Of a stretch of DNA of 33,771 nt, positions 9,268 through 33,207 are shown in pieces; within the stretch, counting starts at the first letter, position 1, and each line of letters starts with the position of its first letter. A model generated the notes under the pieces. It was not told the DNA's origin, did no database searches, and saw only the letters and a list, made by a program, of their open reading frames with translations. Source of the DNA: Plantactinospora alkalitolerans. Its GTDB lineage: Bacteria; Actinomycetota; Actinomycetes; Mycobacteriales; Micromonosporaceae. The translations under genes were made by a program, and so were the position numbers. The DNA is taken from positions 1 to 33,771 of the forward strand of contig NZ_JADPUN010000199.1 of the NCBI RefSeq assembly GCF_015690345.1, read 5' to 3'.

Positions 9268-10311
9268 ATGCGGACACCAGGGCTCTTCGTGCACGCCACC
9301 GGCGTGTTTCTGGGGGACCGGGTTCCGGTCACGGACGCCGTGGCGGCCGGAAGTTATGACGCCGACGAGGCCGAGGCGACGGAGTTCGCCAGCATCGCCG
9401 TCGCGGGAGATGTTTCCGCACCTGAACTCGCGGTGGCCGCTTCGCGGGTGGCGCTGAACCGGGCCGAGGTGCCCGGAACGTCGCTCAGCCACCTCCTGTA
9501 CGCCGACGTCCATCACTCGGGGCCGGACGGCTGGTGCCCGTTCGCCTACGTGCAGCGCGAGCTGGCCGCCGGTGACGCCCTCGCCACCGGTATCCGGCAG
9601 GGGTGCAACGGAGTGTTCGGCGCTATGGCGCTGGCTGACGGGGCGTTGCGGACCGCCGCGGCCGGACGGTCCGCGCTGCTGGTCGCCGCCGACAATTTCT
9701 CCTCGCCGCTGCTGGACCGGTGGCGGTGCAATCCCGGCCTGGTCATGGGGGACGGTGCGGCGGCGCTGGTGCTGAGCCGTACGCCCGGCTTCGCAGAGGT
9801 GCTGTCCGTCGCTTCGACGACGCTTACCGAGTTGGAGGGCCTGCATCGGGGGAACAGGCCGCTGTACCCGGCAGATGTGACTCTGGGCCGGAAACTCGAC
9901 TTCGGCGCCCGTTTCGCCGAGTTCGCTGCTGCCGGCGGTTTCTTCCCGGGCAGTGGACTGGAGTTCGTCCGCCGGTTCGCGGGCCTCGTTGAACTGGTCC
10001 TGGAGGAAGCCGGCGTCAAGCTGGACGAGATCGCTCGAATCGCGTTCAACCACGGGGGCCGCGAGGTGGTAGAGGACCGGCTGGGTCCGTTGGGCGTGCC
10101 GCTGGAGCGCACCACCTGGGCGTTCGGCAGCACGATCGGACACGCCGGTGCGGCCGACCAGATCATCGCGTTCGACCATCTGCTGGGAAGCGGGACCATC
10201 GGTCCCGGTGACCACGTGCTGATGCTCGGCGTCGGCCCCGGAGTGTCGATCGCCGGCGCCGTGGTACGCGTGCATGCCACACCCTCGTGGCTCAATCGAC
10301 CGGGGGACTGA
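9268..10311 (+). CDS. KAS III-like acyltransferase/ketosynthase
   Basis: 347 residues of thiolase fold. The nucleophile is C113 in G-I-R-Q-G-C-N-G-V-F (FabH uses a Cys at nearly the same position), H262 lies in F-N-H-G-G, and where FabH has its catalytic Asn there is H292 in I-G-H-A-G-A-A-D-Q. The C-H-H arrangement and the phrase Y-A-D-V-H-H-S-G-P-D-G-W are features of secondary-metabolite KAS III-like proteins. Several of these (CerJ, DpsC and the CloN2 type) transfer acyl groups or start chains rather than act as fatty-acid FabH. Its stop overlaps the desaturase start and a carrier protein follows, so it probably loads or transfers an acyl unit on that carrier. No clear Shine-Dalgarno precedes ATG 9268. 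Confidence 0.82.
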   Translation: MRTPGLFVHATGVFLGDRVPVTDAVAAGSYDADEAEATEFASIAVAGDVSAPELAVAASRVALNRAEVPGTSLSHLLYADVHHSGPDGWCPFAYVQRELAAGDALATGIRQGCNGVFGAMALADGALRTAAAGRSALLVAADNFSSPLLDRWRCNPGLVMGDGAAALVLSRTPGFAEVLSVASTTLTELEGLHRGNRPLYPADVTLGRKLDFGARFAEFAAAGGFFPGSGLEFVRRFAGLVELVLEEAGVKLDEIARIAFNHGGREVVEDRLGPLGVPLERTTWAFGSTIGHAGAADQIIAFDHLLGSGTIGPGDHVLMLGVGPGVSIAGAVVRVHATPSWLNRPGD

Positions 10312-11441
10312 TGGAGTTCGGATGGACGACCGAGCGGCGGGCGAGATACGACAGCGCGGTCGCCGCCGCGCGGCGGTTGGCGCCGGAGACCGGCACGCCG
10401 GGTCTCGACCCCGCGCTCTGGCGGGAACTCGGCCGGCATGGCTTGCTCGGGGCGAGCGTGGACGTGAAGGAGGGCGGCGGAGGCCTGGGTGCCCTCGACA
10501 CCGCGCTGTTGTTCGAAGGGTTCGGCCGAGGCTGCCCCGACACCGGTCTGGTATTCGCGGCCGCGGCCCACCTGTTCGCCTGCGCCATGCCGATCGCGGA
10601 GTTCGGCTCGGCGGCGTTGCGTTCCCGGCTGCTGCCGGGCCTGTGCGCCGGCGATGCCGTCGCGGCGAACGCGATGACGGAGCCGGGTGCGGGCTCGGAC
10701 GTGTCACTGCTGGCCGTGACAGCCACGCCGGGCGACGGCGGATACCGGCTGAACGGCACGAAGAGTTTCGTCAGCAACGGCCCGGCCGCGGACGTGCTTG
10801 TCACTTATGCGACCACCGACCCGGGAGCGGGCCATTTCGCGCTTACCGCGTTCGTCGTCGACCGTGCCGGTCCGGGCGTCCGGGTCGGTGAGCCGTTCCG
10901 GAAACTCGGCATGGCGTCGTGCCCGGCGAGCGAGGTGGAGTTCGTGGACTGCTTCGTCCCGGACGGCAACGTCCTCGGCGAGCGCGGTCAGGGGTCGGTG
11001 ATCTTCCAGCACTCGATGCTCTGGGAACGGACCTGCCTGTTCGCGCTCTACCTCGGGGTGCAGGACCGGCTGGTCGAGCAGGTTACCGCGCATGCCGGGC
11101 AGCGCACCCAGTTCGGGCAGCCGCTGCGCGGATTCCAGTCGGTGTCCAACCGGATCGTGGAGATGAAGCTGCGGCTGGAGAGTGGGCGCCTGCTGCTCTA
11201 CCGGGCGTGCTGGCTGCTCGACCGCGGTGAGCCGGATCTGCTGGCGTCCGCCCTGTCCAAGCTGGCCGTGTCGGAGGCGGTGCTTGCCAGTTCGATCGAT
11301 GCCCTTCAGATTCTGGGCGGCCGTGGCTACCTGACCGGCCAGGGCGCCGAAGCCGCGCTGCGTGACGCGGTCGGCGGCACCATTTTCTCCGGAGCCTCCG
11401 ACATCCAACGGCAGATCATCGCTCGGGAACTCGGCCTCTGA
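10311..11441 (+). CDS. Acyl-CoA-dehydrogenase-like desaturase, probably acting on a carrier-bound acyl
   Basis: 376 residues from ATG 10311, overlapping the KAS III stop by one base (TGATG) behind a GGGGG Shine-Dalgarno. FAD-binding signatures include A-M-T-E-P-G-A-G-S-D and G-T-K-S-F-V-S-N-G. The usual C-terminal catalytic Glu of short/medium-chain dehydrogenases is missing: the motif is F-S-G-A-S-D-I-Q with S360 at that position. A Glu appears instead at E239 in S-M-L-W-E-R-T-C, the position used by isovaleryl-CoA dehydrogenase and by the prolyl-carrier-protein oxidases of pyrrole biosynthesis (PltE/RedW/CloN3 type). It therefore probably introduces a double bond into an acyl or aminoacyl thioester on the PCP encoded next. 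The substrate is unknown; no dedicated adenylation gene is present nearby. Confidence 0.85.
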   Translation: MEFGWTTERRARYDSAVAAARRLAPETGTPGLDPALWRELGRHGLLGASVDVKEGGGGLGALDTALLFEGFGRGCPDTGLVFAAAAHLFACAMPIAEFGSAALRSRLLPGLCAGDAVAANAMTEPGAGSDVSLLAVTATPGDGGYRLNGTKSFVSNGPAADVLVTYATTDPGAGHFALTAFVVDRAGPGVRVGEPFRKLGMASCPASEVEFVDCFVPDGNVLGERGQGSVIFQHSMLWERTCLFALYLGVQDRLVEQVTAHAGQRTQFGQPLRGFQSVSNRIVEMKLRLESGRLLLYRACWLLDRGEPDLLASALSKLAVSEAVLASSIDALQILGGRGYLTGQGAEAALRDAVGGTIFSGASDIQRQIIARELGL

Positions 11442-11520
11442 CACCGCTGCGCCGCCACTGGCCGCTGGCGCCCTACCGCTACCCGCACGGTCATTGCTCA
11501 CTTACCGGGAGGATGTGTTG

Positions 11521-11832
11521 ATGGAGGCGCTCGAGGCTGTTCTCGTGCATTGCTGGGAGTCGGCGCTGCGGCACCGGCCGATCGGTGTGGACGACAATTT
11601 CTTCGCGATGGGCGGACATTCGCTGACAGCCATTCGGATTGCTCACCGGATCACGGAGGCCTTCGGGGTCGAAGTCGAATACCTCATGGTGCTCGAGTCC
11701 GGCACGATCGCCGTGCTGGCGCAGGGTCTCGTCGACCGTGCCGCGGCGGCCGGCGTCACCGTCTCCGAACTGTCTGACGCGGGGCGGGCCTATCTGCTGA
11801 AGCGGGGCGTCGCAGCCGCAGAAATCGTGTGA
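11521..11832 (+). CDS. Free-standing peptidyl/acyl carrier protein
   Basis: 103 residues. It carries V-D-D-N-F-F-A-M-G-G-H-S-L-T-A-I, with S34 the phosphopantetheine attachment site, followed by the helix 2-3 pattern of NRPS-type carrier domains and a roughly 25-residue charged tail. The ATG at 11521 is chosen because GGGAGG (11507-11512) stands 8 bases upstream; in-frame GTG 11515 and TTG 11518 sit too close to it. As last gene of a set with a KAS III-like enzyme and a desaturase, it is the likely carrier of the acyl unit those enzymes process, and possibly the donor for the first C domain of the NRPS at 15075. The GGHS core looks PCP-like rather than ACP-like. Confidence 0.9.
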   Translation: MEALEAVLVHCWESALRHRPIGVDDNFFAMGGHSLTAIRIAHRITEAFGVEVEYLMVLESGTIAVLAQGLVDRAAAAGVTVSELSDAGRAYLLKRGVAAAEIV

Positions 11833-11835
11833 GAC

Positions 11836-11875
11836 CGAAGGAGGCCCACGCCGGTCATGGCGTGGGCCTCCTTCG
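11836..11875. terminator. Perfect bidirectional terminator hairpin
   Basis: A 16-bp perfect stem (11837-11852 with 11859-11874), flanked by one more C-G pair, has a 6-base loop. It lies between the converging carrier-protein and ABC-exporter genes, only 3 bp after the carrier stop, and fits a shared terminator. Confidence 0.85.
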
Positions 11876-11892
11876 CGTGAGCGTCTCTCCCG

Positions 11893-13833
11893 TCAGCTCC
11901 CGCGACGCGCCGTCCGGACGGGCGGCCGCCGGTCGCTGCTGGCACCGTTCTCCCCGCCGTACTGGATGCGGTACAGGTCCGCGTAGAGGCCGCCGGCCGC
12001 GAGCAACTCGTCGTGCGTGCCGCTCTCCCGGATCTCGCCCTCGGCGACGACCAGGATCTGATGCGCCTCCCGGATGGTGGACAGCCGGTGTGCGATCACC
12101 AGGGAGGTGCGGCCGGTCAGCGCGGTGTGCAGGGCGCGCTGGATGGCCGCCTCGGATTCGGAGTCCAGGTGTGCGGTGGCCTCGTCCAGTACGACGACCG
12201 GTGGCGACTTGAGCAGGAGCCGGGCCAGCGCGACCCGCTGCTTCTCGCCGCCGGAGAGCCGGTAGCCGCGGTCGCCGACCACGGTGTCGAGGCCGTCCGG
12301 CAGAGCCGAGATCACGTCCCAGATCCGCGCGGCCTGGCAGGCCTCGACCAGTTCCTGCTCGGTGGTGTCATCACGGGCGTACATCAGGTTGGCACGCAGG
12401 GTGTCGTGGAACATGTGCGCGTCCTGGGTGACCACTCCGACGGTGCCGAGCAACGATCCCAGTGTCAGGTCCCGGACGTCCTCACCGCCGACCCGGACGG
12501 TGCCCTCGATGGCGTCGTACAGCCGGGGCACCAGTTGGGTGATGGTGGTCTTGCCGGCGCCGGACGGGCCGACCAGCGCGGTCAGCTTGCCGGCCGGGAC
12601 GCGGAACGACACGTCCCGCAGCACCCAGGCGTCGCTGGGACGGTCCTGCCCCCGCCGGGCGATCGACTCCAGGGACGCCAGCGACACGTCCTTGGCGTTC
12701 GGGTAGCGGAACGAGACGTGGTCGAATTCGATGTCCGGAGCGGCGGTTCCGTTCGTACCCGGCTCCAGCACGCGCGCGCCGGGCTTCTCCTTGATGAGCG
12801 GCTTGAGATCCAACACCTCGAAGAGCCGGTCGAAGCTGACCAGCGCGGTCATCACGTTGACCTGCATGTTGGCCAGCTGGTTGATCGGGCCGAAGACCCG
12901 GGTCAGCAGGCCGATCATGGCGACGATCGTGCCGATCTCCAGGGCACCGTCGATGGCGAGGATGCCGCCACCGCCGTACACCACCGCGGTGATGACCCCG
13001 GTGAGCACGGTGAGAGCGAGGGGAATTATCTGCCCGTAGACCATCAGGGTGGTCGAGATGTCCCGTACCGCGGCGGCCTTGCCGGAGAACGTGGCGGTCT
13101 CCCGTTCCGGGTTCCCGTACAGCTTGGTGAGCATCGCCCCGGCGACGTTGAAGCGTTCGCCCATCACCGAGGCCATCTCGGCCTCCACGGTCATGCGTTC
13201 GCGGGTCATCCGCTGGAGCCGGCGGCCGACCAGCCTGGTGGGAAACAGGAACAGCGGGATCAGCACCAGCACGGCCACCGTCAGTTGCCAGGAGAGGATG
13301 AACATCGTGCTGAGGACGAGCACAAGGGTGAGCAGCGTCGAGATGGTCTGGGAGAGCAGCGTGGTCACCGCCTGCTGGGCGCCGACCACATCGGAGTTGA
13401 GCCGGCTGATCAGTGCTCCGGTCTCGGCCCGGGTGAAGAAGGTCAGGGGCTGCCGCTGTACGTGGGTGAACACGGTGGTGCGCAGATCGTAGAGCAGGCC
13501 CTGACCCACCCGGCCGGACAACCAGGTCTGCGAGTACACGGCAATCGCGTCGACAATCGTCGCGCCGAGGATCAGCAGCGCCAGCGCCACCACGACGTCG
13601 CGCCGCTTGGGCATGATCCCGTCGTCGATGACGAACTTGAGCAGAAGTGGTGTCAGTGCGGTGAGGGCCGCGTGGAGCGTGGTCAGCAGCACCAGACCCA
13701 GCAGCGCCCAGCGGTACCGTCGGGCGTACGGGAGGACCCGTTTTATCGTCCCGGGGCGCACCTTCTGCCCCTTAATATCCGGCCTGGGGCCCATGCGCAT
13801 CGGGCCCGCACCGGGGCCGCCCATCATAGCCAC
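11893..13833 (-). CDS. ABC exporter, fused membrane and ATPase domains
   Basis: 646 residues from GTG 13833, picked because AAGGA stands six bases upstream; ATG 13827 is an alternative. An N-terminal cytoplasmic tail ([12 protein letters not shown]) leads to a six-helix exporter domain (about 45-350; first helix W-A-L-L-G-L-V-L-L). The ATPase domain has Walker [10 protein letters not shown], signature [13 protein letters not shown] and Walker [13 protein letters not shown]. This MsbA-like homodimeric type is widely found in glycopeptide, ramoplanin and other Hpg-peptide clusters as the product exporter. It is probably transcribed with the hydrolase 38 bp upstream, from the divergent promoter region that also serves the NRPS. 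Confidence 0.92.
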
Positions 13834-13871
13834 GTAAAGTCCTTTGCTTAGCGGTGGAGCGTCCGGTGGGG

Positions 13872-14672
13872 TCAGTGCTTGTCGAGGAACTCGATGACCG
13901 CGGCATTGACCTCGTCGGGCCGTTCCAGATAGCCGAGGTGGCCGCAGCGGGGAATCTCCACGAAATCGCAGTGCGGGATGGCGTCGGCCGTCTCGGCCGC
14001 GAGGTGCGGCGGTGCGATGCCGTCGTCGGTGAACGCGATGACCCGGCAGGGCGTCGTGATCTTGGTCAGAGCTGCCCGGCGATCCTCGGTGGTGTCCACC
14101 CAGGCCTGCCCGCTGGCCTCGCCGCCCTCGGCGGCGAGCTCGAAGATCTCCAGCCACGACGAGGTGACGTCGTCGTTCCGCAGCGTCGCTGGCGACAGCA
14201 TCTTCTGCACCGTGTCGACCGCCCGGTATCGGGCCGGGAGCTGGATGCCCCGCTCGTCCAACGCCCGGTCGGCCAGTGTCTGGGCCAGACGGACGGCGTC
14301 GGCTCGCGGCCGGGTCGCGATCAGTACGGCACAGCGCACCAACGACGGGCTGTGGATCGCCAGCTCTTCGGCGATCATCGCGCCGAGGGACGTGCCCACG
14401 ATCCGGCAGGGTGCGAGGTCCAGCGCCTCGATGAGCCCCCGGGTGTCGGCGACCATGTCGGCGAGCGAGTAGCGGCCGGGCGGCGTCGCGGACGGCGGAA
14501 CGCCCCGGTTGTTGAAGATGGTGGTCCGGTAGCCCGCGCGGTGCAGGGCCGGAGTCTGGTGCATGTTCCAGACGTGGCCGGCGGCGTTCTGCCCCATGAT
14601 GAGGAGCACATCCTCGCCGTGGCCGCTGCGCTCGTATGACAGCCGGATGCCGTTGGTGTCCAGGTAGGGCAC
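13872..14672 (-). CDS. Alpha/beta hydrolase, possible acyltransferase or editing thioesterase
   Basis: 266 residues from GTG 14672, preceded by a strong GGAGGAG four bases upstream. The oxyanion/strand region has N-N-R-G-V-P-P-S. The nucleophile elbow is G-T-S-L-G (Ser), the acid is in F-T-D-D-G, and the His in R-C-G-H-L-G-Y. Related proteins in antibiotic clusters include type II thioesterase-like editors and the CloN7-type acyltransferases that move a carrier-bound acyl group to a product. The KAS III/desaturase/PCP set nearby recalls the aminocoumarin gene set, so an acyl-transfer role is plausible, but hydrolysis cannot be excluded from sequence. It heads the minus-strand pair with the exporter and faces the StrR-type operators at 14888-14970. 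Confidence 0.8.
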
Positions 14673-14887
14673 GAGTCTCCTCCGGTGTAAATGCGTCAAA
14701 ATCGTTGATGTCGTCCCTACTGGCGCTGTTCACGCCTGCGGACTTGGCCCTACTATCGCAAGATCCGGCCGAATGATGCCAATGTCAGAAACGGCAGCCC
14801 GAACGCCATTGTGCAGGTATGTGGCGGCGTGGTCGAGTCAGCGGAATCCTGCGGAGGTCACGTGGGACGCCGAAAGGCGCGGCAGGT

Positions 14888-14916: not shown

Positions 14917-14941
14917 GGCTGCCGGCTGCGGCCGGCTGTTT

Positions 14942-15074: not shown

Positions 15075-18000
15075 ATGGTCGCTTCTGAAGGTGTGCTCCG
15101 TGAGTTGATGGCCGGCCAGTTGGCTATTTGGAACGCCCAGGCGCTAAAGCCGGACAGCGTTGCCTTCAACGTCGGCGAGTACGTCGAAATTCGTGGTGAC
15201 CTGGACACGGGCCTGTTCATGACGGCCGTGCGGCAGGCGCTGGCCGAGGCCGACTCGTACCGGCTGCGGTTCACCACCGTCGATGGCGTGCCGCGGCAGT
15301 ACGTGGGCGGGATGGAGAGTCCCCCGGTGCGGGTCGTGGATCTGGTCGGCCAGCCGGATCCGCAGGCTGCCGCCGAACACGCCATGCGTGCCGACCTGAG
15401 CCGGCGGATGGAACTGACCGGCGCCGCGATGGGCACCCAGTTGCTGTTCGTGCTGGAGCCCCGGCGTTTCTGGTGGTACCAGCGTTTCCATCACCTCGTC
15501 ATCGACGGGTACAGCCTCTCGTTGTTCGTCTCGGCGGTGGCACGCATCTACACGGCGCTGGCGGAGGACGGCAGCGTCGAGGAGACCAACCTCGAGCCGC
15601 TCTCCGTCCTGTTGGACGCCGAGCGGGACTACCGGGAGTCGGCGGCGTTCGAGCGGGACCGGCGCTACTGGCTGGACAAGCTGTCCGGCCTGCCGGAGAG
15701 CGCCCACCCGGCGGCCCTCCGGAATCGGCTGCCGGATGCCCCCACCAAGCACCGGCGGCAGTTGGACGCGGACGAGGCCACGACGTTGAGAGCGTCGGCC
15801 GCGCGATCGCGGGCCAGCATCGCCGAGCTGGCGGTCGCTGCCGCGGCTGTCTACGACCACCGCCTCACCGGAACGCGCGACGTGGTCGTCGGCGTCACGT
15901 CGGTCGGACGGTCCTCGCCGCGAGAGTTCGACGCGGTGGGGATGACCTCGAACGTGATACCGGTGCGCCTGACGATCGATCCCGCCGAGACGCGCGGGAC
16001 GTTGCTGCGGCGTACGTCCGAGGCGGTCCGGGACGCGCTGCGGCACCAGCGTTACCGGTACGAGGACATGGTGCGGGAGCTGAAGTCCGTCGACGGCGCG
16101 CCGCTGTTCGGCCAGGTCGTCAACGTGATCTCGTTCGAGTATCCGCTGCGGTTCGGCGCGTGTACGGCGACCGCCCGGACGTTGGCGTCCGGCCCAACCC
16201 ATGACCGACGGATCAGTGTCTACGACCGGGCGGACACCGGGGAGCTCACCTTCGAGGTCGAGGCCGATGCCGACCGGCACGGGACGGACGGAGCCGACCG
16301 CGTAGCGAACCGCTACCTGCGGTTGTTGAAGGCTTTCACGGGCGCCGCCGCAAACGAGCCGGTGGCTCACGCCGAGATCCTCGGCGAGGAGGAGCGTCGC
16401 CGGGTACTGGTCGACTGGAATCCTGCGCCGCGCCCGGCCGCGGATCTTCCCGTGCATCTCGGCGACCTGTTCGACGCCCAGGTCGCCCGGACGCCCGAAG
16501 CCATCGCGCTCGTCGGTGACAGTGTCGAACTCACGTACGCACAACTGGACGAGCGCGCGAACCGGCTGGCGTGGTACCTGCGCGGCCGCGGCGTGGGCGA
16601 GGGATCGATCGTCGGACTCGCCGTGGACCGGGGCACCGACTTCGTGGTGGGCTTGCTCGGGATCGTGAAGGCCGGCGCGGCCTATCTGCCGATCGACGCC
16701 CGGTACCCGGCCGAGCGGATCGCGTTCATGATCGACGACAGTGGTGCGGCGCTCGTGCTGACCGCGTCGGACCTCGTCGGCAGCGGGGCGACTCCGGTTG
16801 CCGTGCTGAACAGCGCCGAGGTGCAGGCGGAGATCGCCGGGTCTCCGGCGGTGGCGCCGACGGTGGTCCTGTGGCGGGACTCGCTGGCGTACCTGATCTA
16901 CACGTCCGGCTCGACGGGGACGCCGAAGGGCGTGGGGGTGACCCACGGCGGCGCGGTGAACCTGGCAGCGGCACAGATCGAACGGTTCGGCGTGCGGGCC
17001 GGGGACCGGGTGCTGCAGTTCGCGTCGCACGGGTTCGACGCCGCCACGTGGGAAGTGCTGATGGCGCTGGCCTCGGGCGCCGGGTTGGTGGTGGCCGCGC
17101 AGGACGACCTGCTGCCGGGGGAGGGCCTCACCGGGGTGCTCGGCCGGCACGGCGTGTCGTACGCGACGTTGCCGCCGGTCGTGCTCGGTGCGTTGACGCC
17201 GTCGGACCTGGCATCGGTGCGCACGCTGGTATCGGCCGGTGAGGCCCTGGACCGCGGGTTGGTCCAGCGGTGGGCGGAGGGCCGCCGGTTCATCAACGCG
17301 TACGGGCCGACGGAGACGACGGTGTGTGCGTCGATGTCGGCGCCGCTGGTAGCCGGCGACGAGCCGGTCATCGGCACGCCGATCCGCAACACCCGGGCGT
17401 TCGTCCTGGATGGCTCGCTCGGCCCGGCCCCGGCGGATGTGGCCGGCGAGTTGTATGTGGCCGGCGCCGGTCTGGCCCGGGGGTACATGGGTCGCCCGGG
17501 GCTGACCGGCCAACGTTTCGTGGCGTGTCCGTTCGGCACGGGTGAGCGGATGTACCGCACCGGTGACCTGGCGAAATGGACTCTCGACGGGCAACTGGTG
17601 TACCTGGGCCGAGCCGACGATCAGGTGAAGATCCGCGGGTTCCGGATCGAGCCCGGTGAGATCGAAGCGGTCCTGGGCGCGCATCCGGCCGTGCTCCGCG
17701 CGGCGGTGGTCGTCCAGGAGGTTCAGGCCGGCAACAAGAGCCTGGTCGGCTACGTCGTCCCCGGTGACGGTGACAACGGCGAAGACCTGCCGGCGATACT
17801 GCGGGAGTACCTGGGCGAGCGGTTGCCGGACTACATGGTGCCGGACGCGGTGATGGTTCTGGCGGAGATGCCGCGCACCGTGAACGGAAAGCTCGACCGC
17901 GCGGCGTTGCCGGTGCCACGACGGACCACCGGTGCCGGCCGGAGTCCCGCGACCGCGGCCGAGCGCCTGGTCAGCGAGGCCTTCGCCGAGGTCCTGGGCC

Positions 18001-24000: not shown

Positions 24001-24629
24001 GGGTCAAGTGGACGACGCAGGGGCAGTTGGTGTTCCTGGGCCGAGCCGACGACCAGGTCAAGATCCGCGGGTTCCGGGTCGAGCCCGGCGAGATCGAAAC
24101 GGCCCTGCGCGCCTATCCGGGCGTCGAACACGCCGCGGTGATCGTCCGTGAACAACAGCTGATCGGGTACGTGGTCGCCGACGGTGACGTCGATGAGATC
24201 CGAGGATTCATCGGATCACGGCTACCCGACTACATGGTGCCGTCCACGATCGTCGCCCTGCCGGAACTGCCCCTGACCGACAACGGCAAACTCGACCGCA
24301 ACGCCCTACCCGACCCGCAGCACGCCAACACATCCGTCCGCGGCCCGGAAACGGTGCAGGAAGAACTGCTCTGCGCCGCTTTCGCCCACGTCCTGGGCCG
24401 GGACACCGTCGGCGTCGACGACAACTTCTTCGACCTCGGCGGCCACTCCCTGCTCGGCGTCCGACTCGTCTCCCGGATCCGGTCGACCCTCGGCGTCGAA
24501 ATCGAGATCCGCACACTCTTCGACGCACCCACACCAGCCGAACTCGCGGGCCAGCTCGAGACCGCGCGGCCGAGCCGGCCGGCGCTGCGGCCGAGGCAGC
24601 ACGAAAACCTCACGGAGGACATGCACTGA
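15075..24629 (+). CDS. Three-module NRPS, C-A-T-C-A-T-C-A-T, predicted Phe-Asp-Asp
   Basis: 3184 residues; ATG 15075 follows GAGGA at a good distance. C1 (about 5-430; H139-H140-x-x-x-D144-G) resembles the EntF C domain, which takes an acyl from a free carrier. A1 is about 435-940 (A10 Lys K939) and T1 has S992. C2 has HHVAADG at 1176-1182; A2 is about 1490-1985 (K1983); T2 S2036. C3 has HHIVADG at 2259-2265 and about 38 extra residues near 2175-2225; A3 ends at K3072; T3 S3125. GrsA-aligned pocket residues give DAWTVAAVCK for A1 (Phe-like) and DLTKVGHIGK for A2 and A3 (Asp). There is no epimerase, methylase or thioesterase, and the tail after T3 is short, so the chain should pass to another synthetase, perhaps the one at the left edge. 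Modules 2 and 3 contain a recent duplication. Confidence 0.95.
18958..19267 (+). repeat. Direct repeat block 1, copy A (end of C2)
   Basis: This 310-bp stretch encoding the latter part of C2 recurs at 22207-22516 in C3 (offset 3249 bp). Only two base differences were noticed, both near the 3' end. Outside it the two C domains differ clearly, so identity is confined to a patch, as in gene conversion or module recombination. Confidence 0.9.
19375..21277 (+). repeat. Direct repeat block 2, copy A (C2 end, A2, T2)
   Basis: About 1.9 kb recurs at 22642-24544 with an offset of 3267 bp. Only two differences were noticed (19410 and 19413, changing one residue, W to R). It covers the C-A linker, the whole A domain and the T domain, so both modules have the same specificity code. 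Confidence 0.93.
22207..22516 (+). repeat. Direct repeat block 1, copy B (end of C3)
   Basis: Second copy of the 310-bp block at 18958-19267. It is followed by a stretch of about 125 bp that differs in sequence and length from the corresponding part of module 2. Confidence 0.9.
22642..24544 (+). repeat. Direct repeat block 2, copy B (C3 end, A3, T3)
   Basis: Second copy of the 1.9-kb block at 19375-21277. Identity stops a few codons after T3, where copy A continues into C3 and this copy into the end of the protein. Confidence 0.93.

Positions 24630-25033: not shown

Positions 25034-25036
<3 letters not shown>
24993..25036. repeat. 22-bp tandem duplication overlapping a stop codon
   Basis: Two perfect adjacent copies (24993-25014 and 25015-25036) of a unit that contains GTGGTCACCGGGTGTCTA. 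The last three bases (CTA) are the TAG stop of the minus-strand oxidase gene. It may be a replication-slippage product or the scar of a mobile element. Confidence 0.9.
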
Positions 25037-27377
<2,341 letters not shown>

Positions 27378-27392
27378 TCATTCGACCCGAGG

Positions 27393-27421
27393 GTGCGACC
27401 GTTCCGGTGGCGCAGTTGTAC
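27393..27421. promoter_or_regulatory. StrR/Bbr-type operator 3 (hmaS/mbtH divergent promoter)
   Basis: GTGCGACCG (27393-27401), an 11-bp spacer, then CAGTTGTAC (27413-27421). The right half is the exact complement of the GTACAACTG half at 14942 and 30186. The left half matches at 6 of 9 positions. It lies almost midway between hmaS (127 bp) and mbtH (130 bp). Binding is inferred. Confidence 0.6.
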
Positions 27422-27550
27422 GCCTGGACGCCCTTGATGGTCGGCCCTGAATCAGCCATAGTGAATCCTGGCCCCGACGCCGAGCCACAAATGGCGCACA
27501 GGCGGTTTCTCTGGGTCTGCCCTTATTGCCGAGAGATTAGGGATGGTCCG

Positions 27551-27763
27551 GTGCCGAACCCGTTCGAAGACCCCGACGCGAGCTATCTGGTTTTGGTGAA
27601 CGACGAGGGGCAGCATTCGCTGTGGCCCGTCTTCATCGATGTTCCGGAGGGCTGGACGACGGTATTCGGGGAAGCGTCGCGAGACGACTGCCTCGAATAC
27701 ATTGAGAAGTCATGGACCGATCTGCGGCCCAAGAGCCTCATCGAGGCGATGAAAGGGCAGTAG
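27551..27763 (+). CDS. mbtH: MbtH-like NRPS partner protein
   Basis: 70 residues from GTG 27551, chosen because AGGGA (27539-27543) stands seven bases upstream and the product then begins N-P-F-E-D-P-D, as MbtH proteins do. A frame extending back to 27407 would add residues unlike the family and would overlap operator 3. Signature residues are present: [25 protein letters not shown] and W-T-D-L-R-P-K-S-L. MbtH proteins bind the A domain and enable its folding and activity. This one presumably serves the NRPSs of the cluster. It is monocistronic, with a hairpin after it. Confidence 0.95.
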
Positions 27764-27787
27764 GCCACCGTACGTGTGACCACCCTG

Positions 27788-27819
27788 GATGCCGGTGACC
27801 TCGACGGGCCGCCGGCATC
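27788..27819 (+). terminator. Hairpin after mbtH
   Basis: GATGCCGG (27788-27795) and CCGGCATC (27812-27819) form an 8-bp perfect stem with a 16-base loop, followed by TTGT, 24 bp after the mbtH stop. The stretch 27764-28016 between the converging mbtH and hydroxylase genes shows nothing else convincing. Confidence 0.5.
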
Positions 27820-28016
27820 TTGTCGTCTCCGAAATTTCGCCGATACCCTTGATCAGAGCCGACCATCGATCTCGAGGGCGAGATCCAGGCGTTCGGCGCC
27901 GGCGTCCGACCCGCATCGGAGCCGACTGTCGCCGCGGCGGCTCCCGGCCGACGCGGCGGCAGCGACCTGGCGGGTGGAGTCGCGGCGTCTCCCGCCGATC
28001 GGGTGGTGCGATGCCC

Positions 28017-28952
28017 TCAGTCCGACATCGCCACGAGCACGCGACGGGAACCCTCGAACGGGCGTCGGCCGTGTGCGACGAGGATGTTGTCGATAAGCAT
28101 CAGGTCGCCGGGCTGCCACGGCACGTCGACGGCCAGCTCCAGCCCGCGGTTCTGGATGTGCTCGACGTAGCGGTCCGGGATGGGGGAGCCGTCGGCGAAC
28201 GTGGCATGCTGCGGGAACTCGTCGGGCTCGAGGATGTCGTACAGCTCGGACGCGGTCTTGTCGCCGAGTCCGGCCGGGTGGAACTGGTCCGCCTGGTTGA
28301 ACCAGACCTCCGACCCCGTGATCGGGTGACGCACGGTGGCCGGGCGGTGCTGGATGATCCGGATACCCTCCGGGCCCCATTCCCACTCCGACTCGGTGCC
28401 CTCGAGGAACCGCTCGACCTCGGCCCGGTCGTCCGTCTCGAAGGTGTCCATCCAGCTCTTTCCGAAGCCGAACCCGTCATGCAGGTTCTGTACGTAGCGG
28501 ATGCCGCCGGCGAACGCCTCACGGACCTCGTCGTCCAGCGAGGCCAGCCACAGCTCACCGTCCAGCACCGGGGTGGCACCACCGCTCGCCGGCGCGATCT
28601 GGCAGAAGAAGACCAGGCGCTTGGGCCAGTGGTGGGCGTAGCTCATCTCGTTGTGCATCGAGATGGTGAACTCCTGCGGGTATTCGGTGGAGGTGTAGAG
28701 GTTGCCGCTCACCTTGGTGCGGGGCGAGTTGCCGTGTACGTACGGCAGCCGGTTCGGCACCACCTGGTCGAGTACGGGCTCGATGGACTCCGGTGTCACG
28801 CCGAAGCCGCGGAAGACCACCGCCTTCCGGTCGGCGAGCAGCCGGCTGAGCCCGTCCTGGCCCTGTCCGGTGAGCCAGCCGACGATGTCGGTGGTGCCGA
28901 TGGTGTCACTGGTGATCTCGTGCGGCAGCCAGGTGCCGGCTGTGGTGTCCAT
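28017..28952 (-). CDS. SyrP-type Fe(II)/2-oxoglutarate hydroxylase, probable Asp beta-hydroxylase
   Basis: 311 residues from ATG 28952 behind GGGGG. It has a TauD/clavaminate-synthase fold: metal ligands H100 and E102 in S-M-H-N-E-M-S-Y, distal H294 in V-A-H-G-R-R-P-F, and 2-oxoglutarate-binding Arg at R303/R304. The segment L-P-Y-V-H-G-N-S-P-R-T...N-L-Y-T-S-T-E-Y-P resembles SyrP and its relatives, which hydroxylate carrier-bound Asp at C-beta. The carboxylate ligand is present, so this is a hydroxylase rather than a chlorinase (those have Ala or Gly there). With two Asp-coding modules in the NRPS, beta-hydroxylation of Asp on T2 and/or T3 is the obvious role. Regiochemistry and which module are unknown. 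Confidence 0.87.
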   Translation of the reverse strand: MDTTAGTWLPHEITSDTIGTTDIVGWLTGQGQDGLSRLLADRKAVVFRGFGVTPESIEPVLDQVVPNRLPYVHGNSPRTKVSGNLYTSTEYPQEFTISMHNEMSYAHHWPKRLVFFCQIAPASGGATPVLDGELWLASLDDEVREAFAGGIRYVQNLHDGFGFGKSWMDTFETDDRAEVERFLEGTESEWEWGPEGIRIIQHRPATVRHPITGSEVWFNQADQFHPAGLGDKTASELYDILEPDEFPQHATFADGSPIPDRYVEHIQNRGLELAVDVPWQPGDLMLIDNILVAHGRRPFEGSRRVLVAMSD

Positions 28953-28990
28953 CGTTTCCCCCAATGTTGACGGTTGTGGTTCTGGGCGGA

Positions 28991-29167
28991 TCAGTACGTG
29001 TCCAGGAGCTCGATGACGGCGTCGGCCCGCGCTGTCGTCGCCATCAGGACCGCACACCGGACCGGGCGCGGCCAGCGGGTCGCGATCTCCTCGGCGCTCA
29101 ACCGGGTACCGGTGGTGCGCACGTAGGACACGTGTTCTTCCCGGATGGAAACGTATGCCGGCGCCAC
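28991..29167 (-). CDS. Small unknown ORF, 58 residues
   Basis: GTG 29167 lies four bases after the stop of the GAF gene, and the ORF ends 38 bp before the hydroxylase start, so it would be the middle gene of a three-gene operon. The product begins M-A-P-A-Y-V-S-I-R-E-E-H and contains R-L-S-A-E-E-I-A-T-R-W-P-R-P and a hydrophobic A-V-L-M-A. Codons mostly end in G or C, as in the neighbours. No family is recognised. It may be a small partner of the hydroxylase or a chance open frame. Confidence 0.45.
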   Translation of the reverse strand: MAPAYVSIREEHVSYVRTTGTRLSAEEIATRWPRPVRCAVLMATTARADAVIELLDTY

Positions 29168-29171
29168 CGGA

Positions 29172-29654
29172 TCAGCGGGACGGTAGGCGCTGGGCGGCCT
29201 GGTCCGCGAGCAGGACGAGCAGATCCAGGTCCCGCGGGTCGTTCACCGGACCACCCGGACCGAGAACCTCGATGACCCCGAGGCAGTGTCCGTCCCGTAC
29301 CAGCGGGGCCGCCATGACCCGGCCGGGCACGTAGCCCGCCCGCGAGACCGGTTCACTGGGGAATTCCGTGGTCGACCCGGTGCCGTTCGCCAGCACCGCG
29401 TGGCCGGACGACACGACCCAGCCGGCGATGCCGGCATCCACCGGCAGTTGCCCCTGCGCCGGGTGCCACACTCCGTCCCCGGAGACGGTGTCGAGGATCA
29501 GGCCGCCCGTGTCCTGGTCGATGACCGCGGCGAAGGCGGCGTCGGCGCCGAACAGGATCCGGGCGAGGTCCACGGTGTCCCGCATCGCTGGATTCGCCGA
29601 CGCTCGGGAATGCCTGGTCCGGGGCTGACAAGGACGAAGCTGATACGACCGCAT
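29172..29654 (-). CDS. GAF-domain protein
   Basis: 160 residues from ATG 29654, preceded by GGAGAG; M at 29585 (137 residues) is an alternative. One GAF domain fills the protein: D-T-V-D-L-A-R-I-L-F-G-A-D-A-A-F-A-A-V-I-D at the start, G-Q-L-P-V-D-A-G-I-A-G-W-V-V in the middle and V-M-A-A-P-L-V-R-D-G-H-C-L-G-V-I-E-V-L at the end. There is no output domain, kinase or DNA-binding motif. It probably heads the operon with the small ORF and the hydroxylase. A lone GAF domain could bind a small ligand to sense metabolite or redox state, but no function can be assigned. Confidence 0.75.
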   Translation of the reverse strand: MRSYQLRPCQPRTRHSRASANPAMRDTVDLARILFGADAAFAAVIDQDTGGLILDTVSGDGVWHPAQGQLPVDAGIAGWVVSSGHAVLANGTGSTTEFPSEPVSRAGYVPGRVMAAPLVRDGHCLGVIEVLGPGGPVNDPRDLDLLVLLADQAAQRLPSR

Positions 29655-29873
29655 ACAACTCTCCATCTCATGCAGGATTCGACGGTCCGTAAGCCCGATT
29701 GATGATAGGCCGCAGCCTTCTCGTGTCGCGACCGTCCAGGCAACCAGCGCCGCCCCCGCGTTTTTCGATGATGCAGTTGGACACCGCTCGCCCCCCATTT
29801 GAAACGGGCGCAGCAGGTGGGCACCCAGCAGATCTCTCCACCCCGAGTGGTGCGGCTGGCCTACCGGCAGAGT

Positions 29874-29902
29874 GTCCGTCCGCGTCGATTGGGCGGTTGG
29901 AC
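29874..29902. promoter_or_regulatory. StrR/Bbr-type operator 4 (GAF-hydroxylase operon side)
   Basis: GTCCGTCCG (29874-29882), an 11-bp spacer, then CGGTTGGAC (29894-29902). It matches GTCC-N-N, 17 bp, TTGGAC. It is 220 bp upstream of the GAF start, much like operator 1 relative to the hydrolase gene (216 bp). The rest of 29655-30302 contains no convincing gene. Confidence 0.75.
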
Positions 29903-30185
29903 GCCGCGCCTGCCGCCGGCGAAGAGCGGCGGAGGCGGATGCCCAGGAAATGGGTTACGTTTCCAGGTGGCGGCACGGATCTCTCGGATTGATGCATATG
30001 CGTTGCGGGGCGGTCTGTCAGGCAGCGGTGTCGCTAGCAGAATTCCGGTCACTGTCCGTGTGCTGATGTCCAAGCGAAGAGGCCGAATCCGAATTCGGAC
30101 AGTTGTCGGTGCGTAGCTCGCGGTAAGACGGCTAGCCGCAGCCTGGAGCCGTGATGACCCGTCGATGCAACCTCGCTACGTGCCA

Positions 30186-30214
30186 GTACAACTGCTCAGG
30201 ATTGACAGTTGGAC
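30186..30214. promoter_or_regulatory. StrR/Bbr-type operator 5 (strR-like promoter)
   Basis: GTACAACTG (30186-30194), an 11-bp spacer, then CAGTTGGAC (30206-30214): the halves are complementary at 8 of 9 positions, the best site in the window. It ends 88 bp before the regulator start. A TTGACA hexamer (30202-30207) lies inside it, suggesting overlap with a promoter and autoregulation. Confidence 0.78.
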
Positions 30215-30302
30215 ACCTGCGTCGGGCCGTCGGCCCTGCTTATTATCCGCCTGACGTCGGCTGATTTGGGCCGGTCAGAAGTGCTATACGGTTGGAGGAA
30301 CC

Positions 30303-31322
30303 GTGCTACGGGGGCTTGTTTCGAAAGAACCGACGATGAACAACTCGTTCCGTGGGCTGGTGTCGGCACCCGCTCCGGAAGCGGCACTCGAACTACGGGA
30401 TAGGCGACTGGTCGCCAATCTTGATCTGGAATGGCTGCCAGTCGACGCGCTTCGTCCGGCCGATTCGCCGCGGCGGGCCGGCGAGGACATGAATCACGTC
30501 GAGATGCTGGCTTCCATTGAGGACCACCTACCGCCCATCGTCGTCCACCGCGACAGCATGCGGGTCATCGACGGCATGCACCGCCTGCGCGCCGCCAAGC
30601 TGCGCGGCGACGACATGATCGAAGTGTCCTTCTTCGACGGTACCGAGCAGGAGGCCTTCGTCCTGGCCGTCACGGCCAACACGACGCACGGCCTGCCGCT
30701 CACGCTCGGCGACCGGACGCTGGCCACGGAACGCATCCTCGCCTCACAACCCACCTGGTCGGATCGAGCCATCGCGATGACGGTCGGCCTCGGTGCACGT
30801 ACCGTCGGCAACATCCGCCGCCGGATGCAGGACGAGGCGGCGGTGGAGCGGGTCAGCGCGCGTACCGGCCGGGACGGGCGGGTCCGGCCGCTCGACAACA
30901 ACGTCGGGCGGCTACGTGCCTCGGCGTTGATCAAGCAGCGTCCCGAGGCGTCGCTGCGTGAGATCGCCCGCGAGGTCGGTGTCTCGCCGTCCACGGTCCG
31001 GGACGTGCGGCAGCGGCTCGAGCGGGGTGAGGACCCGCTGCCGCAGATGCGGCGACGCCGGGAGAAGCCGGTCGATCGGGAGGCCGTCTCGCTGATGTTG
31101 CAGGGGCTGCAGAACGATCCGTCACTCCGGTTCACCGAGTCGGGCCGTACCGTGCTGCGGTGGATCCATTCGCGGGCGATTCGTGCGGAGGAGTGGTCCG
31201 CGGTCGAGCACAAGGTGCCGGCGCACTGCGCCTACATCCTCGCCAGCGTCGCCCGGTCCTGCGCCGACGAGTGGCTTCAGATCGCCGACGAGCTCGAGCA
31301 GCGCAGCACGCGCCCGGCCTGA
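30303..31322 (+). CDS. StrR-type pathway-specific activator (ParB-like N-domain)
   Basis: 339 residues from GTG 30303, with GGAGGA (30294-30299) at ideal distance; ATG 30336 lacks one. A ParB/Srx-like domain (about 40-130) has L-P-P-I-V-V-H-R-D-S-M-R-V-I-D-G-M-H-R-L-R-A-A. Two helix-turn-helix segments follow, about 150-175 (W-S-D-R-A-I-A-M-T-V-G-L-G) and 216-238 (S-L-R-E-I-A-R-E-V-G-V-S-P-S-T-V). This layout is that of StrR, Bbr, Tei15* and NovG, activators of antibiotic clusters that bind 9-11-9 inverted repeats. Five such repeats occur here, one in front of this gene. It should activate hydrolase-exporter, NRPS, hmaS-hmo, mbtH and the GAF-hydroxylase operon. Confidence 0.93.
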   Translation: MLRGLVSKEPTMNNSFRGLVSAPAPEAALELRDRRLVANLDLEWLPVDALRPADSPRRAGEDMNHVEMLASIEDHLPPIVVHRDSMRVIDGMHRLRAAKLRGDDMIEVSFFDGTEQEAFVLAVTANTTHGLPLTLGDRTLATERILASQPTWSDRAIAMTVGLGARTVGNIRRRMQDEAAVERVSARTGRDGRVRPLDNNVGRLRASALIKQRPEASLREIAREVGVSPSTVRDVRQRLERGEDPLPQMRRRREKPVDREAVSLMLQGLQNDPSLRFTESGRTVLRWIHSRAIRAEEWSAVEHKVPAHCAYILASVARSCADEWLQIADELEQRSTRPA

Positions 31323-31430
31323 TCCCGATGAGACGAAAACCGGCATGGTCGGGAGCATCATCCGACCGGCTCGCTGATCAGGGTCAACGGGGCGCCGTCG
31401 ATTCGCTCTGACGAGAGACCTCTCGCCGGT

Positions 31431-31467
31431 CGGTGGCCGGACCGCCGTATCGGTGGTCCGGCCACCG
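31431..31467 (+). terminator. Terminator hairpin after the strR-like gene
   Basis: CGGTGGCCGGACC (31431-31443) pairs perfectly with GGTCCGGCCACCG (31455-31467), with a few further pairs into the loop. It lies 108 bp after the regulator stop, between converging genes. Confidence 0.75.
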
Positions 31468-31563
31468 CCTTCCGTCTTTGCGGCGGAGACTCCTGTTGTC
31501 GGATTCCAGTGCAGTTGATCCGGCGGCCGCTCGCCCCGGCGGAACCAAGAGGCGCTGAAAGGA

Positions 31564-31601
31564 ACTGGCCGGCGGCGCGAGGATTCGCGCCGCCGGCCAG
31601 T
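31564..31601 (-). terminator. Terminator hairpin after the di-iron hydroxylase gene
   Basis: A 17-bp perfect stem (31564-31580 with 31585-31601) has a 4-base loop. It lies 16 bp past the hydroxylase stop on the minus strand. With the hairpin at 31431-31467 it insulates the two converging genes. Nothing coding is seen in 31323-31617. Confidence 0.82.
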
Positions 31602-31617
31602 GTCACGGGAGCCCTGT

Positions 31618-33207
31618 TTACCAGCGCCACTCGCGCTTGTTGAAGAGGTGTTCGGCGGTGATGCCGTTTTCGCCGGCCCAGCCGAGGAACTCCTCGATCT
31701 GCTTCATCTGGTAGGTGTCCGGGTTGTAGCTCGTCGCCATGACGTGGCCCTGCCAGCTTTCCTCGCCCATGGCGTAGATGTAGCCCTCGTCCGCGCCGAG
31801 TTCGGTCATGATGGCAGCGGCCTGTTTCGCGTTGGATCCCGAGAGCTTGCGCGAGTCGCTCATCCGCTTGGTGACCGGGCGCGTCAGCAGGCCCTGGTAG
31901 AGCCAGGTGAGCGGGGCTCCGTCGCACTCCATGCCGAGGAACGCCAGGTCGACGTGGCCGAGGTGGTTGCGTACGTACCGGTACAACACCGGATCGATGC
32001 CCGAGGAGTCGGCGCCGACGTAGATGCTGGCGCCGGCGATCTGGACGAAGAACGTGGACTTGGCGCGGATGTCCAGGTCGGAGTGCTCGCCCAGGAACGG
32101 CGTCGCCACCACCCGGCCGCCGGGGATCGGGACCTCGTCGAAGTCGTCGACCTCGATGACCGTGAAGCCCAGGGCCTTGAGGTACAGCCCGATCGACGGG
32201 TCGCAGAGGTTGCCGCGCGACGACCGTGGCACCACGACCGCACCGATCCGTTTGCGGAGCTGGAACAGTGTCTCGAGCACGATGTGGTCCTGGTGTCCGT
32301 GCGTGATGAGCACCAGGTCGATGTGCTCGGGCAGGTCGTCGAGGGTGTAGCGGTCACCGTGGCGGTTGTCGGCGCTGATGAAGGGGTCGGTGACGATTGT
32401 CGCCTCGGCCGACTGGATCACCAGACAGGCGTGGCCGAAGTAGCGGACCCGGCCCCCGGACTCGATACTGCGGTCAGGCGAGAGGCTCGGCTGGTCGGTG
32501 AGCAGCCGCCGCAGCTGTACGGTCTGCGCCTCGTCCAGTTCCAGCGCCTCGCGCAGCCGGCCAACCGTGGTGGGTGCGATCCGGGCCGCGAAGAACTCGT
32601 CGAGACCTTCGTGGTTGAACGGGATCTCCAGCTCGAGCACGTCCGGCTGCGTCAGCCGTGGCGTGCTGAGGATGAACGGCCGCTCGATGCCGGTTTCCAG
32701 CGACAACTGGACCGACTGACGCCGGACGTCGTAGTACGGGCTTGTGTACAGGACCGGTTCGAGCAGGTGCATGGACGCCTGGTTGCCAGTGTCGTAGGCC
32801 AGCTCCACCAGCCCGTTCAGAGCCGGCGGGAGCTTCGGGTAGAGCGGGGTGAGGTCGAAGCCCGTGGCGCTCTGCCGGAGCAGGTCGTCCGCGGTGGCGA
32901 TGGCGTCGGCGAACGCCAGCATGTCCGCCCGGTCCCGCTTGATCGTGTCGAGCAGCGCAGCGATCTCCATGCTGCGCGACTCCTCGACATTCACGAAGTA
33001 GCCGCCGCGCAGTGCGGGGTTGACGCTGGCGGCCGCGTGCACCTGCGGGTTCTGCAGGTACGACTCCAGCATGGGCACCTGGACCTTCGCCAGGTTCATC
33101 GAAGCCTGCGCCGGCGCCACGATATGCATCCAGGCGTAGAAACGGTCGACCAGCGGCTCGATGATCGCATTGGATCTCAGAAACACCGGTTCGTCACTGT
33201 CACTCAT
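31618..33207 (-). CDS. CmlA-type di-iron beta-hydroxylase (metallo-beta-lactamase fold)
   Basis: 529 residues from ATG 33207 behind GGAGG. An N-terminal domain (about 1-245) precedes a metallo-beta-lactamase-fold domain with H303-x-H305-x-D307-H308, E374 and D400. These positions run parallel, with an offset of two to three residues, to the di-iron ligands of CmlA, the 532-residue enzyme that hydroxylates carrier-bound p-aminophenylalanine at C-beta. Length and N-terminal domain separate it from true beta-lactamases. Relatives occur in glycopeptide- and ramoplanin-type clusters, hydroxylating Tyr or Asn on the NRPS. Here an aromatic residue on T1 (Phe-like code) is the most natural substrate, with Asp or a residue of another synthetase as alternatives. 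Confidence 0.9.
   Translation of the reverse strand: MSDSDEPVFLRSNAIIEPLVDRFYAWMHIVAPAQASMNLAKVQVPMLESYLQNPQVHAAASVNPALRGGYFVNVEESRSMEIAALLDTIKRDRADMLAFADAIATADDLLRQSATGFDLTPLYPKLPPALNGLVELAYDTGNQASMHLLEPVLYTSPYYDVRRQSVQLSLETGIERPFILSTPRLTQPDVLELEIPFNHEGLDEFFAARIAPTTVGRLREALELDEAQTVQLRRLLTDQPSLSPDRSIESGGRVRYFGHACLVIQSAEATIVTDPFISADNRHGDRYTLDDLPEHIDLVLITHGHQDHIVLETLFQLRKRIGAVVVPRSSRGNLCDPSIGLYLKALGFTVIEVDDFDEVPIPGGRVVATPFLGEHSDLDIRAKSTFFVQIAGASIYVGADSSGIDPVLYRYVRNHLGHVDLAFLGMECDGAPLTWLYQGLLTRPVTKRMSDSRKLSGSNAKQAAAIMTELGADEGYIYAMGEESWQGHVMATSYNPDTYQMKQIEEFLGWAGENGITAEHLFNKREWRW

Follow-up and report, generated by a model that had tools for sequence, protein, structure and literature searches.

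A peptide capped by a pyrrole-2-carbonyl group, probably chlorinated, rather than by a fatty acid is the likely product of the NRPS cluster that lies in part on contig NZ_JADPUN010000199.1 of Plantactinospora alkalitolerans, and we put the probability of this reading at about 0.78. The product probably reads (chloro)pyrrole-2-carbonyl-Phe-Asp-Asp..., with ten or more residues, and on our best reading it is made in the style of the ramoplanin and glycopeptide clusters and is not a fatty-acyl lipopeptide. The gene families, the adenylation pockets, the nearest relatives and the clustering of the cap genes in two relatives were observed directly. The first-pass annotation could not match the cluster to a named compound, and this is borne out within the literature searched: full-text searches, read as titles and starts of abstracts among the matches listed, gave no matching named product.

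Gene content of the contig

The window, that is, the whole stretch of 33,771 nucleotides analyzed here, is an entire contig cut at both ends and therefore one piece of a larger NRPS cluster. Its genes were called from Pfam matches and homology. The genes and coordinates given in the first-pass annotation hold, as the NRPS, HmaS, Hmo, MbtH, both hydroxylases, the exporter and the StrR activator were all found again; the whole-contig nature of the window and an exact repeat in NRPS modules 2 and 3 were absent from it. Below, window genes are compared with those of two other contigs, C41 of the same genome and C208, and of three relatives, G004, G410 and G042.

An ABC exporter module occupies 519..3780 on the minus strand, with an FtsX/MacB permease (519-1737), an ABC ATPase (1718-2422) and a PG-binding/HlyD adaptor (2419-3780) identified by Pfam; it has homologues on C41 at 65, 74 and 51%, and its role is probably self-protection or export. 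Pfam also identifies, on the plus strand, a response regulator (4203-4859) and a histidine kinase (4736-5992), together spanning 4203..5992, and a second ABC ATPase (6066-6758) with an FtsX permease (6755-9127), a pair spanning 6066..9127 whose members match C208 proteins at 72% (ATPase) and 48% (permease). Further Pfam matches are an ABC exporter with fused membrane and ATPase domains (about 11893..13827, minus strand; 66% in G004, 69% in G410), an alpha/beta hydrolase resembling type II thioesterases (13872..14672, minus strand; 71% in G004, 73% in G410), an MbtH-like protein (27407..27763, plus strand) and a GAF-domain protein (29172..29798, minus strand), the last with no match in the G004, G410 or G042 stretches. 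A StrR-like activator, a ParB/HTH protein, lies at 30303..31322 on the plus strand (63% in G004 and G410).

Proposed cap genes in the window

The KAS III-type protein (9268..10311, plus strand; 74% in G004, 71% in G410) is an acyltransferase of the ChlB3/DpsC/CerJ kind, scoring 322 bits with ChlB3 versus at most 48 bits with true KAS III enzymes. Orthologues at about 70% or more occur in 3 of the 354 family genomes, its own genome counted. Its scan against the GTDB r220 contigs gave no match, a weak absence given that the scan consisted of a few short peptide patterns. The dehydrogenase (10287..11441, plus strand; 80% in G004 and G410) belongs to the acyl-CoA dehydrogenase superfamily and is most like prolyl-carrier-protein dehydrogenases. 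Its top solved relatives, 5zw0 (322 bits) and 6af6 (319 bits), are both L-prolyl-PCP dehydrogenases, and it also matches 6cxt (319 bits), which is named butyryl-CoA dehydrogenase, and the prolyl-ACP dehydrogenase 4irn (287 bits), with the next score at 235 bits. The best NCBIfam models are PigA (409 bits) and RedW (402 bits), both short of their equivalog cut-offs (500 and 650), so that the prolyl-carrier-protein dehydrogenase assignment holds at the family level only. When the GTDB r220 contigs were scanned with an alignment of three dehydrogenase sequences, likewise by way of a few short peptide patterns, the matches were Nocardia lijiangensis (65%) and two further loci at 34%. The third gene encodes a free PCP (about 11521..11832, plus strand; Pfam PP-binding; 60% in G004, 58% in G410), whose start codon was chosen by eye within ORF 11362-11832. 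We propose that the dehydrogenase makes the pyrrole, that the KAS III-type enzyme moves the pyrrolyl group between carriers, and that the free PCP is the acceptor of the cap. The set of KAS III, desaturase and PCP genes named in the first-pass annotation is present, but a fatty-acyl role for it is not supported, since the supposed desaturase is nearest to prolyl-carrier-protein dehydrogenases.

Further putative pyrrole genes on a second contig and in relatives

On C41 we find an enzyme resembling proline ligases (452 bits to the proline--carrier-protein ligase 6o6e), a halogenase (5buk 681, ChlB4 651 and PltA 554 bits) that by closest similarity is of the PltA/Mpy16 kind rather than a tryptophan halogenase, a carrier whose nearest relative is PltL, two sulfotransferases, an MbtH gene and the start of a second NRPS, NRPS-2. 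By homology, a stand-alone proline ligase and its carrier would therefore be encoded in the same genome as the window genes. Within this genome the dehydrogenase has a single match at 1e-120, the KAS III-type protein a single match at 1e-60 and the ligase a single match above 40%. The two contigs complement each other: nothing on C41 matches the dehydrogenase or the KAS III-type protein, and a ligase and a halogenase are missing from the window.

All pyrrole-pathway genes, split over two contigs here, lie in one cluster in both G004 and G410. Orthologues of the C41 ligase (70-74%), halogenase (80-85%) and carrier (72-78%) are found there together with those of the window KAS III-type protein, dehydrogenase, PCP, NRPS-1, TauD-type and CmlA-type enzymes, ABC exporter, hydrolase and StrR, and the NRPSs of these relatives hold 16 (G004) and 23 (G410) A domains. 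The two sulfotransferases stand upstream of NRPS-2 on C41 and likewise in G004, as does the MbtH gene on C41 and in G410; gene order differs between the window and the relatives. On the side against a pyrrole cap, the KAS III-type protein and the halogenase are also close to ChlB3 and ChlB4 of chlorothricin, and the chlorothricin acyl group on which ChlB4 acts is not a pyrrole.

The assembly line

NRPS-1 (15075..24629, plus strand) has the order starter C-A(Phe)-T, C-A(Asp)-T, C-A(Asp)-T, and neither an epimerase nor a thioesterase was seen among its domains (three each of C, A and T). Its pockets were re-read as DAWTVAAVCK, DLTKVGHIGK and DLTKVGHIGK, in line with the Phe-Asp-Asp specificity claimed earlier; the ninth position of the second and third pockets is G, in the local sequence TETTIGVA. 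DAWTVAAVCK is also given as the L-Phe code of lunaemycin module 1 in PMC9866976. The starter C domain, whose nearest relatives are 7c1k, then EntF and CDA synthetase I (174 bits), is by similarity of the lipoinitiation/EntF kind. Further pockets on NRPS-2 and on short contigs holding only NRPS sequence are for Asp, Phe, Tyr and arylglycine-type residues, with one left without assignment.

Arylglycine supply and beta-hydroxylases

The Hpg precursor genes claimed earlier are indeed in the window. HmaS (hydroxymandelate synthase; 26172..27296, minus strand) has 2r5v, 'PCZA361.1', as its nearest solved chain (506 bits versus 316 for the next); its identity to the G004 HmaS is only 39%, and the G410 stretch yielded no HmaS. 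HMO, a stand-alone protein of the FMN-dependent hydroxymandelate oxidase type by Pfam (25034..26188, minus strand), is 78% to a protein of G052 but only 50% to the fusion proteins of G004 and G410. HpgT is absent from the window and was found only on C208, which may supply it to the pathway. We did not count C208 itself as part of the cluster, since neither of its two A domains exceeds 0.57 identity to the others across the pocket region and the contig encodes an HmaS and a StrR of its own. Reading the DALS-type pockets as Hpg rather than Dpg from an absence of DpgA in G042 failed, because a 66% DpgA homologue lies just beside the G042 cluster.

Two kinds of beta-hydroxylase had been proposed, and the families agree. 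One is a TauD-fold, SyrP-like oxygenase (28017..29057, minus strand; Pfam, HNE motif) with orthologues in G004 (70%), G410 (75%) and G042 (64%); it is a candidate beta-hydroxylase of carrier-bound Asp, and the window has one TauD-type enzyme against two Asp modules. The other, of the CmlA type (31618..33207, minus strand; PF18456, 285 bits; 78% in G004, 84% in G410), shares with the diiron beta-hydroxylases CmlA and FrsH the CmlA_N domain, a metallo-beta-lactamase-type domain and the metal motif, here HGHQDH (diiron-binding HxHxDH). It scores 444 bits with 8a90, which we take to be FrsH, and 321 bits with CmlA. FrsH acts on carrier-bound Leu (PMC7794379), so an aromatic target does not follow from membership of the CmlA-type family. 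Action on Phe is possible for the window enzyme, but G004, which keeps it at 78%, lacks a canonical pocket for Phe or Tyr, although the domain with its pocket DAWLVGAVVK most resembles Phe/Tyr domains.

Alternative explanations

No end overlap between C41 and the window was found, and a physical link is absent from the assembly. The only exact shared end among the contigs and pieces compared is that of C296 and C320 (127 bases); the right ends of the window and of C41 match no other contig end, and the left end of the window was compared with the contigs of the C296-C320 comparison only. The pyrrole genes of C41 could thus belong to a second, unrelated cluster, with the window dehydrogenase and KAS III-type protein doing something else, and the dehydrogenase-ligase-carrier-halogenase quartet does stand without a multi-module NRPS in the G257, G939 and G396 stretches. 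We nevertheless consider this quite unlikely, given the complementary gene sets and the fact that both relatives with the KAS III-type protein at about 70% or better hold the genes of both contigs in one cluster. Assembly also bears on the double Asp module. Modules 2 and 3 of NRPS-1 are identical over 1,864 bp (19414..21277 and 22681..24544, plus strand), each copy covering the end of the C domain, the A domain and the T domain (C2, A2, T2 and C3, A3, T3), a length far beyond the 127-base overlap, and the assembly might have merged divergent copies or given a wrong number of them. Such an artefact is unlikely, because the intervening C domain is distinct from C2, with a separate relative in G004 (68%), and adjacent Asp modules occur also in G410 and G042, in the latter identical over the compared region. 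Asp-Asp is therefore likely real, with doubt limited to the exact identity of the copies.

An ordinary lipopeptide, in which the KAS III-type protein and the dehydrogenase make an unsaturated fatty-acyl starter on the CDA/ramoplanin model, would suit a starter C domain whose nearest relatives are of kinds accepting acyl or aroyl groups, and a dehydrogenase of the acyl-CoA dehydrogenase superfamily. It is very unlikely, however, as three of the four best solved dehydrogenase relatives are prolyl-carrier dehydrogenases, the KAS III-type protein is of the acyltransferase kind, and orthologues of the proline ligase, pyrrole halogenase and PltL-like carrier travel with the cap genes in G004 and G410. 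No fatty-acyl starter genes were seen in the window or in the ten C41 ORFs put to Pfam. Of the capped NRPS peptide predicted in the first-pass annotation, the N-terminal cap is supported and the ordinary fatty-acyl starter is not. Still more remote is a siderophore with iron bound by two adjacent hydroxy-Asp residues: the Asp-Asp pockets, the TauD-type oxygenase and the EntF-like first C domain would fit, but no siderophore-uptake family occurs among the Pfam-searched proteins of the window and C41, which are a part of the cluster only, and the StrR-type activator, the Hpg supply and the sizes of the relatives' assembly lines resemble antibiotic clusters.

Proposed route to a pyrrole-capped peptide

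In the route set out here all reactions are inferred, and so are the order of the contigs, the presence of chlorine and the positions of hydroxylation. The PltF-like ligase of C41 would load L-proline onto the PltL-like carrier, the window dehydrogenase would oxidize the carrier-bound proline to pyrrole, and the C41 halogenase would chlorinate it. The KAS III-type acyltransferase would then pass the pyrrolyl group to the free PCP of the window, comparable with CloN2 in clorobiocin biosynthesis, for which such transfer to a second carrier is described in PMC11218499. The starter C domain would join the cap to Phe, two Asp would be added, and NRPS-2 with the short NRPS-only contigs would finish the peptide, probably at ten or more residues. 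The precursor of the arylglycine would come from HmaS and HMO, carrier-bound residues would be beta-hydroxylated by one enzyme of the TauD type and one of the CmlA type, StrR would activate the cluster, and the ABC proteins would export the product and protect the host.

If this is true, a cap chemistry familiar from small molecules is joined here to long peptides assembled along the lines of lipid II binders. The expected mass would have to be corrected, a search for fatty-acyl peptides would miss the product, and a chlorine isotope pattern and label from proline would serve as handles. As the cluster is unbroken in two relatives, expression and structure prediction are feasible.

Comparison with known systems

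The ligase, carrier, dehydrogenase, halogenase and KAS III-type transfer enzyme are nearest to those of the clorobiocin, pyoluteorin and prodigiosin pathways (CloN2-N5, PltE/F/L/A and PigA). In those pathways the pyrrole becomes attached to a sugar, polyketide or pigment, whereas in the present proposal it opens a peptide made by a multi-module NRPS, with the genes on two contigs. The StrR-like activator, HmaS with HMO and the ABC exporter of the window, and the long assembly lines of the relatives, are like those of the ramoplanin, enduracidin and chersinamycin clusters. Unlike in those clusters, the pyrrole set replaces the fatty-acyl genes and Asp pockets are many; we know of no member of the ramoplanin family with many Asp pockets. 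CDA contains Asp-Asp and Hpg, and its synthetase I is matched by the starter C domain of NRPS-1, but the present cluster differs in its pyrrole set, in an NRPS-1 lacking an epimerase domain and in a starter C domain closer to 7c1k and EntF. Activator, arylglycine supply and exporter genes are described as common to ramoplanin-like and glycopeptide clusters in PMC10886168, and it is in this company that we place the assembly line. As for the cap, the likeness to hormaomycin is one of description, not of sequence. Hormaomycin is a non-ribosomal peptide with a chlorinated pyrrole as its cap; this pyrrole is N-hydroxylated, and the peptide is different and shorter.

Proposed pyrrole-cap genes are split between two contigs

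Of the four solved proteins most similar to the window 'desaturase', three are dehydrogenases of the prolyl-carrier-protein kind (322, 319 and 287 bits). The remaining one, 6cxt, is named as a butyryl-CoA dehydrogenase (319 bits), and the next solved relative after these four is an isovaleryl-CoA enzyme (235 bits). The best NCBIfam models for this dehydrogenase are PigA and RedW, with scores under their equivalog cut-offs. For the KAS III-type acyltransferase, ChlB3 is the closest relative, followed by 9z38, 7vyu, DpsC and CerJ; no true KAS III enzyme scores above 48 bits, and the GCNG cysteine of ChlB3 is retained. In clorobiocin biosynthesis, as outlined in an excerpt of PMC11218499, CloN4 activates proline, CloN5 carries it and CloN3 oxidises it, after which CloN2 shifts the group from CloN5 to a second carrier, CloN1; an excerpt of PMC10849742 likewise lays out the logic of carrier, ligase and dehydrogenase. 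The first-pass annotation, which had implied an acyl starter, holds in outline but is most likely wrong as to the cap, since its 'desaturase' is nearest to prolyl-carrier-protein dehydrogenases.

A 24,990-bp contig of the same genome, C41, encodes a stand-alone adenylating enzyme with the pocket DLFYVAWVCK (452 bits to the proline ligase 6o6e), a halogenase (681 bits to 5buk, 651 to ChlB4 and 554 to PltA) and a small carrier whose best match is PltL (45 bits). It also encodes an MbtH protein and the beginning of a further NRPS (NRPS-2), namely its initial C domain, truncated by the contig end. MbtH lies ahead of NRPS-2 in C41 and in the relative G410 alike. Two sulfotransferases (L055:6079-7691) also precede NRPS-2 on C41, and homologues in another relative, G004 (51 and 40%), occupy the same position immediately ahead of NRPS-2; the G410 stretch examined yielded none. 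Given this pair of genes, the product may be sulfated.

The two gene sets are co-located in relatives

In both G004 and G410, the C41 ligase, halogenase and carrier have orthologues that share a single cluster with orthologues of the window KAS III-type protein, dehydrogenase, PCP, starter NRPS, TauD-type and CmlA-type enzymes, together with those of the exporter, hydrolase and StrR. However, the G004 proteins share just 39% identity with the window HmaS and 50% with its HMO, a search of 140 kb of G410 yielded no HmaS, neither the GAF protein nor the left-hand regulators of the window had a match in the stretches compared, and gene order differs from that in the relatives, all of which count against simple orthology of the whole cluster. 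Among the HMO proteins compared, the closest to that of the window is the stand-alone HMO of a further genome, G052 (78%).

NRPS-1 and the hydroxylases

The window is the complete contig C421 (33,771 bp), one of 441 that make up a draft genome of 9.2 Mb, and Pfam, NCBIfam and solved-structure matches located the genes where the first-pass annotation had placed them. NRPS-1 (15075-24629) has 3,184 amino acids arranged as three C-A-T modules, in which no epimerase or thioesterase was seen in the domain reading. Re-reading confirmed its reported pockets DAWTVAAVCK, DLTKVGHIGK and DLTKVGHIGK. The latter two, in modules 2 and 3, we take to specify Asp, and 1,864 bases are identical between these modules. 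An excerpt of PMC9866976 assigns DAWTVAAVCK to L-Phe. The third C domain (within 18180-24629) has extra residues ahead of its HHxxxDG motif, with 232 residues between this motif and the T motif before it, versus 193 for the second C domain; the fourth-module C domain of G004 is 68% identical to it with equally long spacing.

By its sequence, the window CmlA-type enzyme can be placed firmly in the CmlA family. FrsH, also of this family, hydroxylates carrier-bound Leu according to an excerpt of PMC7794379, and G004 retains CmlA (78%) where a canonical Phe/Tyr pocket is absent, so that the target of CmlA is not firm; an aromatic residue in the G004 peptide is possible. The TauD-type enzyme is retained in G004, G410 and a further genome, G042, all three with Asp pockets, and Asp would fit as its candidate substrate.

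Arylglycine supply

The identity of HmaS is secure from its nearest relative. The window has HMO alone, whereas an HMO-HpgT-like fusion occurs in G004 and G410, as do Dpg genes. The best HpgT and DpgA matches in the own genome (65 and 66%) are both on contig C208, apparently another cluster, with a Tyr pocket in its NRPS and an ABC ATPase 72% identical to that of the window at 6066-6758. C208 (L101, L102 and L056) holds a glycopeptide-like cluster with DpgA-C, HpgT, halogenase, StrR and HmaS. The DALS-type (arylglycine-type) pockets may specify Hpg or Dpg, which the G042 comparison did not separate.

Length of the assembly line

G004 has 16 NRPS A domains and a terminal thioesterase, and G410 has 22 A domains plus one in a broken frame, making 23; its frame breaks may be sequencing errors. 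The G410 line (G410:C1:2148477-2230500) includes Asp-Gly-Asp and several Tyr and Thr pockets. For the strain itself, the window together with six short contigs that carry NRPS sequence only (C287, C327, C306, C296, C277 and C320) gave 10 A domains, excluding partial domains at contig ends. Over the pocket region, the Phe domain of C327 and the Tyr domain of C277 share 0.80 and 0.78 identity with the window Phe domain, and the C208 domains at most 0.57. The former values follow the pattern of paralogues inside one cluster, as also found in G410 and G042, and we infer that the short contigs belong to the window's cluster.

Many C domains of relatives (L049-L060 and the G410 stretches) carry HHxxxDHxG about 226 residues past the T motif, the alternative form being HHxxxDGWS at 193 residues. 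The former are possibly dual epimerisation/condensation domains; in G004, an epimerase motif of the classical type was not observed.

Recurrence and rarity of the cap genes

Dehydrogenase, ligase, carrier and halogenase recur inside about 8-21 kb in three further genomes (G257, G939 and G396), with no multi-module NRPS detected by motif in 80, 80 and 40 kb, respectively. In G396 (L120-L121, G396:C1:1106001-1146000), the quartet directly adjoins HmaS, HMO and HpgT homologues; the product of this locus is perhaps a small pyrrole-arylglycine compound.

Of 354 family genomes, 3 have the KAS III-type protein at roughly 70% or higher and 42 at E≤1e-60, the best below the top three reaching 52%. The CmlA-type protein is more widespread, with matches in 9 of 151 genomes at E≤1e-80. 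The dehydrogenase was matched in 3 of 394 sampled class genomes at 1e-120 and the halogenase in 5 of 397 sampled order genomes at 1e-200, the own genome being included in every count; since G004 and G410 are absent among the halogenase matches listed though both carry the gene, these sample figures are not full counts. The system is a variant of known NRPS peptide clusters, for which no named product appeared among the titles and abstract openings listed by full-text literature searches.
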